A stretch of 6,671 bases of DNA from positions 1 through 6,671 of the forward strand of contig JAGLYR010000253.1 of the NCBI GenBank assembly GCA_023132135.1. Reading direction: 5' to 3'. Both the position numbers and the translations under genes were made by a program. Below the pieces are notes generated by a model. It searched no databases. It was not told the origin of the DNA and saw only the letters and a program-made list of their open reading frames with translations. This DNA is from Candidatus Eiseniibacteriota bacterium. Lineage in GTDB: Bacteria > Arandabacterota > Arandabacteria > JAGLYR01. Below, in pieces: positions 1,327-6,095 of this stretch (within the stretch, counting starts at the first letter, position 1; each line of letters starts with the position of its first letter).

Positions 1327-1863
1327 ATGAGCGTTAATCGGATGTTTACGTCCTCAATCACCGCATTCGCTATCGTGTTGGTGCCGTGTACACAGGCTCT
1401 TGCCGCCACCTCTGGAACGTCGGACGTGGTTCTGCAAGCCGCCGCCACGGTGGAAATCAACATCGTGGATGCCAGTATCACACTCACACCGGGGCAAGGT
1501 GACTACGAGACGACCTACATCTCTGCCGAAGCGGCCGCGGGTATCGACCTTCGGATTCGCACCAACAGTTCCACCGGAGCGGTGCTGAGTGTGAAGTGCA
1601 CCGACGCATCTCCGCAAATCGCACTCACGGATCTGCTCTTCAAAACTCAGACCGCGGCCGGAGGCTCGGGCACCACACAGAGCACATACGGAGCGATTAC
1701 TGCGGTCGATCAGACCCTGTGGACGACGACGACCACCTCTGCAACCTGGACGACCGTACAGACGGATATTCGGGTTCAGGATCTGTGGGACTACTCCGAC
1801 GCCAGCGGGGGCGGCACGACGGCGTACACAAACACGCTAACTTACACCATTGCAGTACAGTAG
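1327..1863 (+). CDS. Small secreted beta-rich protein, candidate fibre subunit (paralogue 1)
   Basis: This is a 178-residue exported protein of no family I can name. Residues 1-26 form a Sec signal peptide ending ALA, with cleavage expected before A27. The mature part is rich in Thr, Ser, Ala and alternating hydrophobics, as in an all-beta Ig-like subunit, and has one cysteine (C91), so no internal disulfide. It is paralogous to the next gene, about 40% identical by my hand alignment. Shared motifs are DYE (59-61), DASP (93-96), DLL, and a C-terminal block from 146 (TD-x-R-x-Q-x-LW-x-Y-x-DA-x-GGG, then LTYT). This copy has about 14 extra residues after the signal peptide (27-40), absent from paralogue 2. 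A donor-strand N-terminal extension would look like that. The C-terminal strand resembles pilin or spore-coat-U type ends in style, but the classical pilin Gly-14 and penultimate aromatic pattern is missing. The downstream chaperone and barrel genes support a role as exported structural subunit, by context only. Confidence 0.72.
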   Translation: MSVNRMFTSSITAFAIVLVPCTQALAATSGTSDVVLQAAATVEINIVDASITLTPGQGDYETTYISAEAAAGIDLRIRTNSSTGAVLSVKCTDASPQIALTDLLFKTQTAAGGSGTTQSTYGAITAVDQTLWTTTTTSATWTTVQTDIRVQDLWDYSDASGGGTTAYTNTLTYTIAVQ

Positions 1864-2007
1864 CGGATCACACCTGCTGCAGCCGTCCTCGTCCGGAACA
1901 CTCTTGCAACCCTTGCTCTTTCCGCGCGCTCGTTGATTCTCCTTTAGTTTTTTAAACAACCAGCCGAATACAGGTACGAAGGGATCTACTCCGAGCCATC
2001 CGCAGAA

Positions 2008-2565
2008 ATGCGGACCAGGATCGCGGGGACCAAGGAAGGCGGGGAATTGCGGCAGAATCGCGCGGGCTTCAGAGATCTTGTGAATGCCGGACTTCGAAGG
2101 ACGACGGTCGTTCCGGTACTGGTACCGTGCATCGTCTTTCTGGTGACCTCCTCTGCGATGTGTGCGTCCAGCATCACGGTGCTGGATGCGAACGTCGTTC
2201 TGTCGCCGTTGCAACTGGACTACGAAGCTGGATATGTGGAAGACACCGCTCCCGGCGGGATTGAGGTTCAGGTCACGACCGACAACGTCGCAGGCGTGAT
2301 CATCTACGTTCGCAGCGACGATGCATCACCGGAAGTCGCCTTTGCCGATCTGTTGGTCAAGTGCCCGACGGCCGGGACTTCCATGGGGTCTTACACTTCG
2401 GTCTCGGGTACGGATCAGGCCCTCTGGTCAACCAGTACTACAGTGACAGGCTACAGCGTGTTCACCGACGTCCGGATTCAGAACCTCTGGGTCTATCCGG
2501 ACGCCGCCGGCGGCGGCGCAACGCTGCACACGGACGCGTTGACCTACACAGTGGTGGAGCAGTGA
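2008..2565 (+). CDS. Small secreted beta-rich protein, candidate fibre subunit (paralogue 2)
   Basis: Paralogue of the preceding gene, 185 residues from the ATG at 2008. The conserved core runs from LDA (59-61) through DYE (71-73), DASP (105-108), DLL and the C-terminal TD-x-R-x-Q-x-LW block (from 153) to the end. The hydrophobic signal sequence lies at residues 32-53, with likely cleavage after AMCA (53), giving a mature chain of about 132 residues that starts almost directly at the first shared strand. It therefore lacks the N-terminal extension of paralogue 1. The start is unresolved. The ATG at 2008 has no good ribosome site and gives an unusually long n-region. TTG at 2047 has a strong AAGGAAGG 7 nt upstream. 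GTG at 2080 would give an ideal 29-residue signal peptide but has only a weak AGAG. The stop is 2 nt before the chaperone start, so the two genes are probably translationally coupled. A 144-nt gap with a T/A-rich patch (about 1943-1956) separates it from paralogue 1, and I see no clear terminator or promoter there. Confidence 0.7.
   Translation: MRTRIAGTKEGGELRQNRAGFRDLVNAGLRRTTVVPVLVPCIVFLVTSSAMCASSITVLDANVVLSPLQLDYEAGYVEDTAPGGIEVQVTTDNVAGVIIYVRSDDASPEVAFADLLVKCPTAGTSMGSYTSVSGTDQALWSTSTTVTGYSVFTDVRIQNLWVYPDAAGGGATLHTDALTYTVVEQ
2032..2039 (+). promoter_or_regulatory. Shine-Dalgarno-like site that may set a TTG start at 2047
   Basis: AAGGAAGG ends 7 nt before an in-frame TTG at 2047-2049. The in-frame ATG at 2008 lacks a comparable site. 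If used, this site shortens the paralogue 2 precursor to 172 residues with a 40-residue leader. Confidence 0.4.
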
Positions 2566-2567
2566 TC

Positions 2568-3422
2568 ATGCGCGCTCGGAGAGCCATAGCGGGAGTCCTG
2601 ATCTGTACCACAGCTGCGATCCTCCTCGTGTCGGGTACGGCCGCCGGGGGCCTCCGCATGGGAGTTTCGCCCATGAAGATTCTCCTGTCTCTTCAGCCCG
2701 GCGAGGAGCGCCGCCTGGCGATCAATGTGTTCAACAACGGCGACGATGCAATCCGCGTGGTAACGGAGATCGGGGACTGGCTGGCTACACGCGACGGGAA
2801 TATCCAGCTGCTGCCGACGGGATCGCACGAGAGGGCGGCGTCGGGCTGGGTGAGCGTTGACCTGGCGGAATTCACCGTCCCGGCTCACAGCACTCAGGTG
2901 GTTCGGTTGACGGTGAACTTCCCCGTTGACGTGGAGGGATCCTACTGGACGATCGTTTTCTTCGAGGCTCAGTCCGGACAGGCCCGAAACCGGCTGGGAC
3001 TGAGAACCAAGGTTCGAATGGCAACGACCGTCTACCTGACGGCGGAGGGGACGGAAATCCGGGACGACACGCTGACGGACATGCTGGTGGAGGCAAATCC
3101 CGAGGACGGAACCATACAACTGGGTGCTTCCCTTGCGAACCGCGGCAATGTCCACTACTACCCGCAGGGATGGTTCCAGATCCTGAACCCCAAGGGGCTC
3201 GTGGTTTTTGAGAAGGAACTTCCCTGCCGCGTTTGTCTGCCGGGCACGGAGACGACGTATCTCGCGCCATGGCAACCCGAGGGTGCAGGGAAATACACCT
3301 TCGTCGTCACCGTCGACACGGGACAAGAGACACTACTCCAGGGGATCAAGCACTTCGATGCCTCCGATCTACTACCGGATGAGGCGCTTCCGGAGCAGAC
3401 ACAGATCACGCGAGTAAAGTGA
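2568..3422 (+). CDS. PapD-like periplasmic chaperone (chaperone-usher type)
   Basis: 284 residues, a little longer than the usual 230-250 of pilus chaperones. Residues 1-27 are a signal peptide (Arg-rich start, hydrophobic 6-26, ending GTAAG). The first Ig-like domain follows the PapD plan. An N-terminal strand GVSPMKILL (32-40) precedes LQPGEERRLAINVFNNGDDAIRV (42-64), then a W71 strand, VPAHSTQVVRLTVNFP (104-119), and SYWTIVFFE (125-133). A strand equivalent to PapD G1 follows, LGLRTKVRMATTVYLTAEG (143-161). K148 aligns with the cleft lysine of PapD (ALQTKIKLFYRP context), and K37 sits where PapD has its cleft arginine. These residues anchor a subunit C-terminus in the classical family; equivalence here is inferred by eye. 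A second beta domain fills about 165-270. The start is chosen at the ATG 2 nt after the paralogue 2 stop, with GGAG at 2556-2559 inside that gene. It probably folds and delivers the two upstream subunits to the barrel encoded next. Confidence 0.78.
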   Translation: MRARRAIAGVLICTTAAILLVSGTAAGGLRMGVSPMKILLSLQPGEERRLAINVFNNGDDAIRVVTEIGDWLATRDGNIQLLPTGSHERAASGWVSVDLAEFTVPAHSTQVVRLTVNFPVDVEGSYWTIVFFEAQSGQARNRLGLRTKVRMATTVYLTAEGTEIRDDTLTDMLVEANPEDGTIQLGASLANRGNVHYYPQGWFQILNPKGLVVFEKELPCRVCLPGTETTYLAPWQPEGAGKYTFVVTVDTGQETLLQGIKHFDASDLLPDEALPEQTQITRVK

Positions 3423-3446
3423 TTCCCTGTTTCTTTGGAGAGGCGG

Positions 3447-6095
3447 ATGGTGGGAAGGCGCCAGGATTCTCCTTGGGTTGTCGTTGCACTGCTGGCCGCC
3501 TTCTGGCTCGTACCCGCTACCCTCGTATCTTTTCAGGCTGCGGTTCCCTCCCCACAGGTCGGTTCGGCGACCGAGCTGCCCGCCATCGAGGAGCGGGCGA
3601 CCGCATGGTCTTCTGCGCCGTCGCGAGACAATGAATCCCTTCCGGCCCCCGATCCCTTCATCCTCTCCGGGCCGCCCTCCCCCGTCTCTCAATCCCCGCT
3701 GCAGGAAACTGTCCCCGCCCCCGTGAGGACCCCACCCACCACGACACCGAAGCCACATCAGCGCAGGCGACTTCCCCCCGCGTATCGGCGCACCGACGCC
3801 CCCTCGGCGGCGCGCGACGCCAACGCTGAAGCCGATGGTGAGACAGCGCCCGAGACGACGAAGGTCACGTCTCTTGCCTCGCGAGCCGAGGACGGTGGAG
3901 CGGCTTTCTCTGTGCGGCGGATCCAGCGGTCGGAATTCCCTCCGGCGAGCACTCTTCGCAAGGGGAAGCCCAGATTGCACGCAGCCTCCAACCGCCACAA
4001 CCTGCTCTCAGGGTCAGAGAACACTGGAGCGGGAAGCTTCTCGCTGTGGGACGATCTACGCGTGCGACTTTCCGGCACCGTCTCCCGGCCGGCCGAAGGT
4101 TCCCCGGCCCGTCAATCGGACACTCGCCTCGCGCTCACCAAGATTCTCTCCGTCGGCAGGCTGCACTTCCAGGCCGATTTCGTGGACAGAGAGGGTAGAC
4201 TCTTCGTGGCCCGGAGGAGCGTCGGCCTGGAGACATTCGGCAGGTGGTGGCTTGCGGCAGGAGATCACGCGATTCCTCCCGGCGCCGCGGGGCTGAACGG
4301 AACCCAGGCGCGCACCCTGATCCTGGAGCGACGCGCACCCGGTCCCGGCTCATCCGCCAGGTGGAGGGCAGGTGGCCTGCTGGGGCGGCTGCCCTTGAGC
4401 TATCTCAACATGGAGCGAAGCGTCTTTCCGAGGAACATCGCCGCGGTCTACGGCAGAATCGAGCAGCCCAACCGGTTCCATTTTCACGGGCTTCTTTACT
4501 CGTTGTCCGACCGGGAGGGTTTCGAAGTCACATCGGGCCCGCCGATCCACAGGGGCATCGGAATCGGTCTGTCCAGCGCTATTCGAAACCAGCGGTTCAA
4601 CCTTCGGGGCCAGCTGCACAGCTCGCATCTGGACCTTCACCAGCGGGATGACGGGATTTCTGTGGCTGCCAACCTGAGCGGCGGCGGACAGCTCGGGCCC
4701 TTTGGTCTGGGGGCCCGTCTGCAGGGAACTCGCGGGACCCCCTATGAAATCGACCATCACGGTGGTCTGCAGCCCACGCCCGGCCTGATCCAGGAGGGGA
4801 ATCTGTCCTTCCGCTCGCGCGTCGGTCTCATCATGAACGCATGGGCCGGACGATGGGCGAATCCCGTGATCTCCGAGAACAGCATCGAGGGTCCGGTCAT
4901 TCGCCAGGTCTCTGCTTCGGGACAACTGGCGGGAGCAAGGGGGACGTGGAAGATCGGAAAGACCGGAACGGCGATTTCCTTCTCGAGGGAACACCGCCGG
5001 CGCGAGCGGGACGGGGATGCCCAGAACACGGTCAGCACAGGGACCTCGATCTCCCAGCAGATCCGCCGCGGCATCGCAACCTCGCTTCGCTGGAATCGAA
5101 TCTCATACAGCGATCGCGGTTCCCACAACTACGTGACGGGCGATCTGAGTTTTCGTCTCGGGCGAAGGCTCCTGGTATCGCTTCAGCAACGAACCCTGTG
5201 GCGAGAACCCTATGGAGCGCGGCTCGAGTCGATCCTTGATGTTTCGGGAGTCCGCCTCCTCGACGGACGCCTGTCTCTTTCCAGCCAGATGGCTCTGACC
5301 CAGGATCGTTCGGACGCCCAGGAATTTCGACAGTCCCAGTGGCAGAGCAGGTTCCATGCGGACTTCCATCTGAGCGAGCGGTTCCGGCTGACGTCCCGGT
5401 ACCACATGATTCACTCCGACTTCGGGGCCGTTCACAATTTCCACATCGGGCTCGCCCATTCCCCGAATCCCACTCGCAGCGAGCCTCCTGGTGCGTCGGG
5501 CAGGATCCTGTTCGAGCGCCAACTCGTGCGGGGCCATGTATTCGAGGACGTGAACGGAGACGGGAAACGGCAGGAGGGGGAACCCGGAATCCCCGGGGTC
5601 GAGGTGGCTGTTGATGAAAACACGCGTCAGCCACTCACCTGTGATGTCGAGGGCGCGTGCCGCGCCCTGATTCTTCCGGGCCGCCACACGGTTCGTGTGA
5701 TTCCCGCGTCGGTTCCCACAGAGTACATGCTGCGAGGGACCGGGCCCATCGAGATCGAAGTGATGCATGATCGACCAACGGAGTTTGCGTTTCCTCTCAA
5801 GCGACGCATCGGCGCCATTTACGGGCGCGTTGTTGACGACAACACGGGTGAAGGACTCCGGGACGTCAAGGTTCTCCTGGGCGAGCACGATTTCGCCTTC
5901 ACAGGCAGAAATGGCGCCTTCCGCTTCGTCTCTCTGCCCGCCGGCGAATACGAGCTGCGGATGGACGCCCGGACGCTGCCCTTCGGCTACCGCCCCAGGC
6001 AGGAAACCAGGCAGGTGCGGGTGGGAGGCGAGAGCTCGGGCGAGGATCTTCAGATCCTTAATGCATACCGCCCGATTCGGCGGGTGGAATTTTGA
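3447..6095 (+). CDS. Usher-like outer-membrane beta-barrel protein with two C-terminal Ig-like domains
   Basis: 882 residues from ATG 3447, preferred because GGAGAGG (3437-3443) precedes it; TTG at 3435 lies in the same frame but has no such site. Residues 10-28 are a signal sequence. Residues about 33-190 are low-complexity, rich in Pro, Ser, Thr, Ala and Arg, and probably disordered. Residues about 195-672 alternate polar and hydrophobic or aromatic residues in hairpin-length strands, as expected for a large outer-membrane barrel, about the size of a 24-stranded usher pore. Two beta-sandwich domains follow. The first (about 694-785) opens with GHVFEDVNGDG (696-706) and E-x-E-P-G-x-P-G-V, a SdrD-B/CNA-B-like calcium loop (D701, N703, D705, E712). 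The second (about 789-870) resembles a carboxypeptidase regulatory-like fold (GRVVDDNTGEGLRDVKV, then GAFRFVSLPAGEYEL). Classical ushers also end in two beta-sandwich domains, and operon position after a chaperone fits. Unlike them, it has no visible folded N-terminal domain, no obvious plug and no cysteine pair at the C-terminus. A different barrel scaffold is possible. Confidence 0.7.
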   Translation: MVGRRQDSPWVVVALLAAFWLVPATLVSFQAAVPSPQVGSATELPAIEERATAWSSAPSRDNESLPAPDPFILSGPPSPVSQSPLQETVPAPVRTPPTTTPKPHQRRRLPPAYRRTDAPSAARDANAEADGETAPETTKVTSLASRAEDGGAAFSVRRIQRSEFPPASTLRKGKPRLHAASNRHNLLSGSENTGAGSFSLWDDLRVRLSGTVSRPAEGSPARQSDTRLALTKILSVGRLHFQADFVDREGRLFVARRSVGLETFGRWWLAAGDHAIPPGAAGLNGTQARTLILERRAPGPGSSARWRAGGLLGRLPLSYLNMERSVFPRNIAAVYGRIEQPNRFHFHGLLYSLSDREGFEVTSGPPIHRGIGIGLSSAIRNQRFNLRGQLHSSHLDLHQRDDGISVAANLSGGGQLGPFGLGARLQGTRGTPYEIDHHGGLQPTPGLIQEGNLSFRSRVGLIMNAWAGRWANPVISENSIEGPVIRQVSASGQLAGARGTWKIGKTGTAISFSREHRRRERDGDAQNTVSTGTSISQQIRRGIATSLRWNRISYSDRGSHNYVTGDLSFRLGRRLLVSLQQRTLWREPYGARLESILDVSGVRLLDGRLSLSSQMALTQDRSDAQEFRQSQWQSRFHADFHLSERFRLTSRYHMIHSDFGAVHNFHIGLAHSPNPTRSEPPGASGRILFERQLVRGHVFEDVNGDGKRQEGEPGIPGVEVAVDENTRQPLTCDVEGACRALILPGRHTVRVIPASVPTEYMLRGTGPIEIEVMHDRPTEFAFPLKRRIGAIYGRVVDDNTGEGLRDVKVLLGEHDFAFTGRNGAFRFVSLPAGEYELRMDARTLPFGYRPRQETRQVRVGGESSGEDLQILNAYRPIRRVEF

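Follow-up and report, generated by a model that had tools for sequence, protein, structure and literature searches.

A probable divergent, largely plugless chaperone–usher unit in a Candidatus Eiseniibacteriota bacterium and its relatives in many phyla

Classical chaperone–usher pili of the Fim and Pap type (FimC, FimD and FimA-H) are encoded by genes for subunits, a two-domain PapD-like periplasmic chaperone and an usher. The usher is a large 24-stranded barrel that carries two C-terminal periplasmic sandwich domains and a plug between strands 6 and 7, with a GD...RG.Q motif before the plug position. Most of the subunits bear an N-terminal extension and one does not. Here, we describe a four-gene unit with the same gene order in a 6,671-nt stretch of DNA (the window) from a Candidatus Eiseniibacteriota bacterium (assembly GCA_023132135.1, contig JAGLYR010000253.1). 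The window is one entire contig (C172) of a 3.4-Mb assembly that is 96% complete. We consider, with a probability of roughly 0.8, that these genes together make up a complete assembly unit belonging to a divergent, largely plugless branch of the chaperone–usher superfamily.

The locus shares with the classical systems the chaperone and barrel architecture, the split into extension-bearing subunits plus one without, and the motif before the plug position. Unlike them, it shows no plug between strands 6 and 7, does not conserve the Arg8/Lys112 chaperone anchor, has C-terminal barrel domains of the SdrD_B and CarboxypepD_reg types, and uses subunits of no known pilin family. The usher N-terminal domain is unrecognisable, its place being taken by a disordered tail in the window and by two NEW3-like immunoglobulin (Ig) domains in most relatives. 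Archaic (Csu) and alternative (Ecp, Cfa) systems compare through the wide phylogenetic spread of the archaic class and through a weak similarity of the chaperone to EcpB (E 0.12), but their Arg89 anchor, spore-coat-U domain, cysteine pair and plug are all missing here. The WxLIP proteins of Gram-positives (DUF916-DUF3324) resemble the chaperone in sequence over both domains and have a strand predicted to complete a partner's beta-sandwich, but they end in a membrane helix at the C-terminus, pair with WxL proteins and have no outer-membrane barrel. MtrB, of the Mtr electron conduit, is likewise a plugless barrel of ~26 strands, with multihaem cytochromes as partners and no C-terminal sandwich domains, chaperone or subunits.

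The genes of the unit and their parts, with the evidence for each in brackets, are:

1327..1863, + strand: sub1, a secreted, N-terminally extended beta subunit, the proposed strand-donating fibre subunit (paralogy with sub2, extension by position, orthologues)
2008..2565, + strand: sub2, a paralogous subunit without extension that adjoins the chaperone, the proposed terminal (tip) subunit (paralogy, 0 residues before the core, orthologues)
2568..3422, + strand, from ATG: PapD-like two-domain periplasmic chaperone (WxLIP match, E. coli chaperone profiles, conserved positions)
3447..6095, + strand: usher-like outer-membrane barrel protein, with a signal peptide, a Pro-rich disordered N-tail (~residues 30-200), a barrel (~205-690) without apparent plug and two beta-sandwiches (Pfam, profile chain to its family, models)
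3906..3953, + strand: short conserved motif FSVRRIQRSEFPPAST in the disordered N-tail of the barrel protein, a candidate docking motif (variant repeat in the related locus L125)
5523..5810, + strand: C-terminal beta-sandwich 1, SdrD_B-like, at the position of the first usher C-terminal domain, CTD1 (Pfam, model)
5811..6080, + strand: C-terminal beta-sandwich 2, carboxypeptidase-regulatory/transthyretin-like, at the position of CTD2 (Pfam, model)

The gene unit and its subunits

The original prediction, made from the letters of the window, saw two paralogous secreted beta proteins, a PapD-like chaperone after a 2-nt gap and, after a further 24 nt, a large barrel, together forming a non-canonical chaperone–usher-like unit. 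This gene layout stands. The products of sub1 and sub2 are 43% identical (E 1.9e-31), and the N-termini of all four proteins are signal-peptide-like. The chaperone begins 2 nt after the sub2 stop, at position 2568, where the family alignment also begins; the list of open reading frames (ORFs) holds a longer chaperone ORF from 2361. The longest barrel ORF begins at TTG 3435, and the most likely start is ATG 3447, which has GGAG 6 nt upstream and leaves the 24-nt gap.

The same arrangement recurs far beyond the window. Separate searches of 193 genomes with the chaperone and with the barrel led to coinciding places in five genomes besides the window's own, and in a sample of 386 genomes, 62 contained the family as judged by a chaperone profile. 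Scanning 84,980 species genomes with a chaperone-only pattern gave 115 relatives, 80 of which were kept, with locus counts limited to loci with enough sequence. Because these relatives were picked by the chaperone alone, their neighbouring genes provide an independent test. A barrel-family gene lies directly downstream of the chaperone in 75 of the 77 testable loci, and subunit-family genes lie upstream in 70/74. An order that recurs in this way across phyla is not due to chance, and the genes were thus found to be neighbours in relatives, as the chaperone–usher gene logic proposed for the window supposes. In the sole testable loci with other genes after the chaperone, L235 and L242 (both Chlorobi), these genes encode proteins of ~250-274 and 560-620 amino acids (aa).

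The kept relatives are spread over many phyla, with three cultured species among their hosts: Thiohalocapsa marina, Thiococcus pfennigii and Orenia metallireducens. The family occurs in Zixibacteria, Krumholzibacteriota, KSB1, Ignavibacteria, Bacteroidota, Armatimonadota, Planctomycetota, Verrucomicrobiota and Bipolaricaulota, as well as in Deltaproteobacteria-type metagenome-assembled genomes, purple sulfur bacteria and Halanaerobia. Full-length matches to the window subtype come from the clusters at L125 and L128, each of which carries two corresponding subunits, a chaperone and a barrel, the barrels being 37-38% identical. No additional copies of window-type barrels were found in the phyla of these two loci, and a scan of the genome collection with the window barrel alone gave no matches.

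The subunits were predicted to be unfamiliar, and indeed neither sub1 nor sub2 matches a pilin family in Pfam or NCBIfam, including spore-coat-U. Their profile yields chance matches only against the PDB, and against E. coli pilins only a match the size of a signal peptide. They share a conserved core with the consensus TATQTVTxEVxAINEISVSG, and the number of residues before this core depends on gene position. At position -1, beside the chaperone, the median is 1 residue, against 12.5-18 at position -2 and beyond (14 at -2; 152 subunits; p 2e-15 for -1 versus distal), in a sample that spans many phyla, in which related sequences are not independent and signal cleavage was assigned by a simple rule. 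Both subunits of the window, L125 and L128 obey this extension-by-position rule: mature sub1 starts at about ATSGTSDVVLQAAATVEINI, and its orthologues retain ATTGTSDVILEASATAQLNI; mature sub2 starts at about SSITVLDANVVLSP, with 0 residues before the core, and its orthologues at LSITIVSASTSLSP and LSITISDASVSLLP. Such a pattern is expected for donor-strand exchange with one receive-only terminal subunit, and it favours a linear donor-strand fibre over a surface layer. In three relatives (L067:4663-5646, L124:4257-5243 and L126:7056-8045), the -1 subunit is longer at its N-terminus by ~160 residues, which precede the subunit domain and, in the L067 protein, gave no Pfam match; these subunits look like two-domain tip adhesins.

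Kinship of the chaperone and the barrel

By profile–profile comparison, the chaperone family is linked over both domains to seven E. coli chaperones (Prob 95.7, E 1e-8, 193-198 columns), with a reversed-sequence control at 0.2, which supports the PapD-like assignment made from the window. Asn56, Pro119, Asn191, Pro225 and Asp250 are common to the family and all E. coli chaperones that align there, and each is conserved in 89-99% of 110 family members. The nearest solved relative is the WxLIP protein of Enterococcus faecium, which the family profile matches over both domains (E 3e-7); the window chaperone itself gives a sub-threshold Pfam match to WxLIP. Since WxLIP is itself predicted to fill out the beta-sandwich of WxL with an inserted strand (PMC10599100), both sides of the chaperone family may plausibly donate strands. 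Of the classical anchor, the Lys112 position is Gln in 79/110 members and Lys in 7/110, and the Arg8 position is mixed. Arg150 is found family-wide (93%) and is possibly a replacement anchor for the subunit C-terminus.

Further chaperones of this kind lie in other settings. In the window's genome (G000), contig C304 (L006:420-2001) carries a second chaperone of the family beside a small secreted beta protein, in a stretch read without a barrel gene. Contigs C6 (L007:204-3965) and C179 (L008:4515-8668) encode tandem PapD-like proteins of 560-579 aa, with two chaperone modules, that adjoin true secretins (PF00263, E 6e-41 and 1e-37) and a small secreted beta protein, and these loci are possibly a chaperone–secretin system. 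L072, L073 and L141 likewise hold tandem proteins of the chaperone family, comparable in size.

The barrel is connected to ushers stepwise. The window barrel type matches a plugless family of 50 sequences (E 2.8e-14, 547 columns), and this family matches relatives with a plug-like insert (L064, L076 and L143; E 6e-23). An alignment of these three in turn matches E. coli ushers across the GD/RG.Q motif and the plug (E 1.7e-8), or, with L160 added, over 552 columns (E 5e-10). The E-values are those of single profile comparisons rather than database searches, and reversed controls all gave Prob <1; the plugged relatives matched E. coli ushers significantly as alignments, and not as single sequences. 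The motif GD..Y...L......RG.Q, which precedes the plug position in FimD, is kept in the barrel family.

Structure prediction points the same way. An AlphaFold2 model of the L163 barrel, of the same class as the window's, reached a predicted local distance difference test score (pLDDT) of 87; its barrel has ~26 strands, preceded by two Ig domains and followed by two sandwiches. Searched against the PDB with Foldseek, it finds FimD ushers best (E 1.5e-12, ~800 columns). A 3-residue turn joins strands 6 and 7 in this model, and in 50/50 aligned barrels only a short turn occupies the plug site; a plug-like insert is found in four divergent relatives, L064, L076, L143 and L160. At the C-terminus, the window barrel matches SdrD_B (residues 701-741, E 8e-9) and CarboxypepD_reg (795-846, E 1e-8), and a Pfam-recognised usher in L161 likewise matches CarboxypepD_reg near its C-terminus. 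At the N-terminus, where a folded usher domain was looked for, the window barrel is rich in proline, gives no Pfam match and has strands predicted only from residue 195 onwards. The original view of the barrel as a departure from the classical usher is upheld. The tail holds the motif F.VR.I..S[ED]FP, a variant of which recurs in L125. There, the long low-complexity N-tail of the barrel (L125:6842-8400) has several variant F.V(R/S)R copies, possibly a repeated docking motif.

First barrel matches at L080-L084 and L088-L092 were set aside, as only the sandwich domains are in common. Four of these loci (L080:6443-9406, L081:4994-7648, L083:1950-4880 and L084:4394-7333) encode very large prepilin-like proteins (N-terminal GFT.IE) that carry SdrD_B-like repeats; they lie in genomes of the same class, surrounded by genes like those of type IV pilins. 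In the window itself, a rhomboid-family intramembrane protease (202-1008; PF01694, E 2e-32) lies directly upstream of the cluster, with nothing to indicate a part in the unit, and the opposite strand carries the end of a pyridoxal phosphate-dependent decarboxylase gene. A scan for sigma-70 promoters and terminators gave no signal exceeding shuffled sequences.

Weighing the alternatives

Several observations weigh against membership in the chaperone–usher superfamily. The Pfam usher model PF00577 has no match in the window barrel, among the families reported for 50 relatives or in the genome, and no Pfam PapD match was found across the window's genome either, in a search whose E. coli control was positive. 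Compared directly with E. coli ushers, the plugless barrels give a weak match (Prob 35); the usher homology therefore rests on the intermediates and on structure. The proline that is invariant in strand D1 of superfamily chaperones (PMC4654587) is kept in 77/110 family members and is Leu in the window chaperone. An AlphaFold2 model of the window barrel with 13 divergent relatives reached a pLDDT of 44, with only the C-terminal domains usable; in these, residues 694-881 are confidently folded (block pLDDT mostly 72-90), in line with the two sandwiches originally predicted. A DALI-like re-ranking of the L163 barrel alone places the 26-stranded MtrB (Z 21.1) above FimD (16.9) and PapC (16.6). Finally, the structure models cover barrels only, and the Ig fold short of one strand remains putative for the subunits.

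Among other explanations, a Gram-negative, WxL-like surface complex survives best, although we consider it unlikely. The PapD-like protein would then be a lasting structural partner that keeps the small beta proteins at the cell surface or wall, rather than a recycled chaperone, and the barrel would export or anchor these proteins without a long fibre. The kinship with WxLIP, a protein reported to stay permanently with WxL (PMC10599100), counts for it, as do hints of wall anchoring: the L125 (L125:5662-6807) and L128 chaperones have a C-terminal SPOR-like (peptidoglycan-binding) extension, and a SPOR domain is found in 9/50 aligned barrels. These SPOR parts suggest a link between the assembly site and the cell wall. 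Neither subunit matches a WxL domain in Pfam, however, the window chaperone has no C-terminal membrane helix, and a near-universal large barrel together with the split between subunits with and without extension is unexpected for a static complex.

It is very unlikely that the locus is an archaic (sigma) chaperone–usher system that Pfam misses through sequence drift. The gene order is identical and archaic systems are found in many phyla (PMC9452303), but the Arg89 anchor of CsuC and EcpB is never present (0/110 chaperones, which have Ser, Ala, Gly, Thr or Cys instead), the window subunits each have a single mature cysteine and no match to a Pfam pilin or spore-coat-U family, and the plug is missing.

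Least credible is that an MtrB-type or other large export porin merely lies beside a chaperone–subunit pair, its usher likeness being generic to large barrels: the re-ranking, the shared strand count and the absent plug fit this, but the subunits are free of the CxxCH motif of c-type cytochromes, the pair of C-terminal sandwiches is constant, Foldseek puts FimD first, and where relatives have a plug, their alignment with E. coli ushers runs through it. An origin of the barrel in polysaccharide export was rejected, with AlgE-type porins lower in the structure lists and no such neighbours in the window; no match to a porin or polysaccharide-export family that lacked usher features arose.

A proposed assembly route and its meaning

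By the homology of its chaperone and barrel, the simplest account is that the system descends from chaperone–usher stock. The analysis shows the gene order, this homology, the absence of the plug across the aligned family and the extension pattern; strand donation, polymerisation, secretion, fibre formation and gating are inferred, and may proceed as follows. Signal peptides would take both subunits into the periplasm, where the chaperone would complete the unfinished Ig-like fold of each with a loaned beta-strand. Chaperone–subunit complexes would dock at the barrel, possibly via the motif in the disordered N-tail, which would replace the folded usher N-terminal domain. The extension-less sub2 would enter first and become the distal tip, and each following sub1 would insert its extension into the groove of the preceding subunit, displacing the chaperone (donor-strand exchange). 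A thin surface fibre would exit through the large barrel, its base held by the two C-terminal sandwiches. The barrel would have descended from ushers and lost the plug, and its resting pore would need to be closed in another way.

As the system lacks a match to the Pfam usher model, the plug, the usher N-terminal domain and the anchor residues of the known classes, it was not placed in the classical, alternative or archaic class. We lean towards the view that it is a class of its own within the superfamily, distributed across many phyla and undetected by curated models. It would have an usher without a plug (and, in the window subtype, without a folded N-terminal domain), new mechanisms of gating and recruitment, and a chaperone with a third kind of grip on the subunit C-terminus, possibly through Arg150. 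Literature searches, within open-licence PubMed Central (PMC) papers, found no prior description of this system.

If correct, this places a related but undetected machine in many phyla, and provides a candidate fibre system for many uncultured bacteria as well as the three cultured species. With plugged and plugless forms in one family, the role of the usher plug becomes directly testable by comparison. The family would also link the pilus chaperones of Gram-negative bacteria to the WxLIP proteins of Gram-positives.

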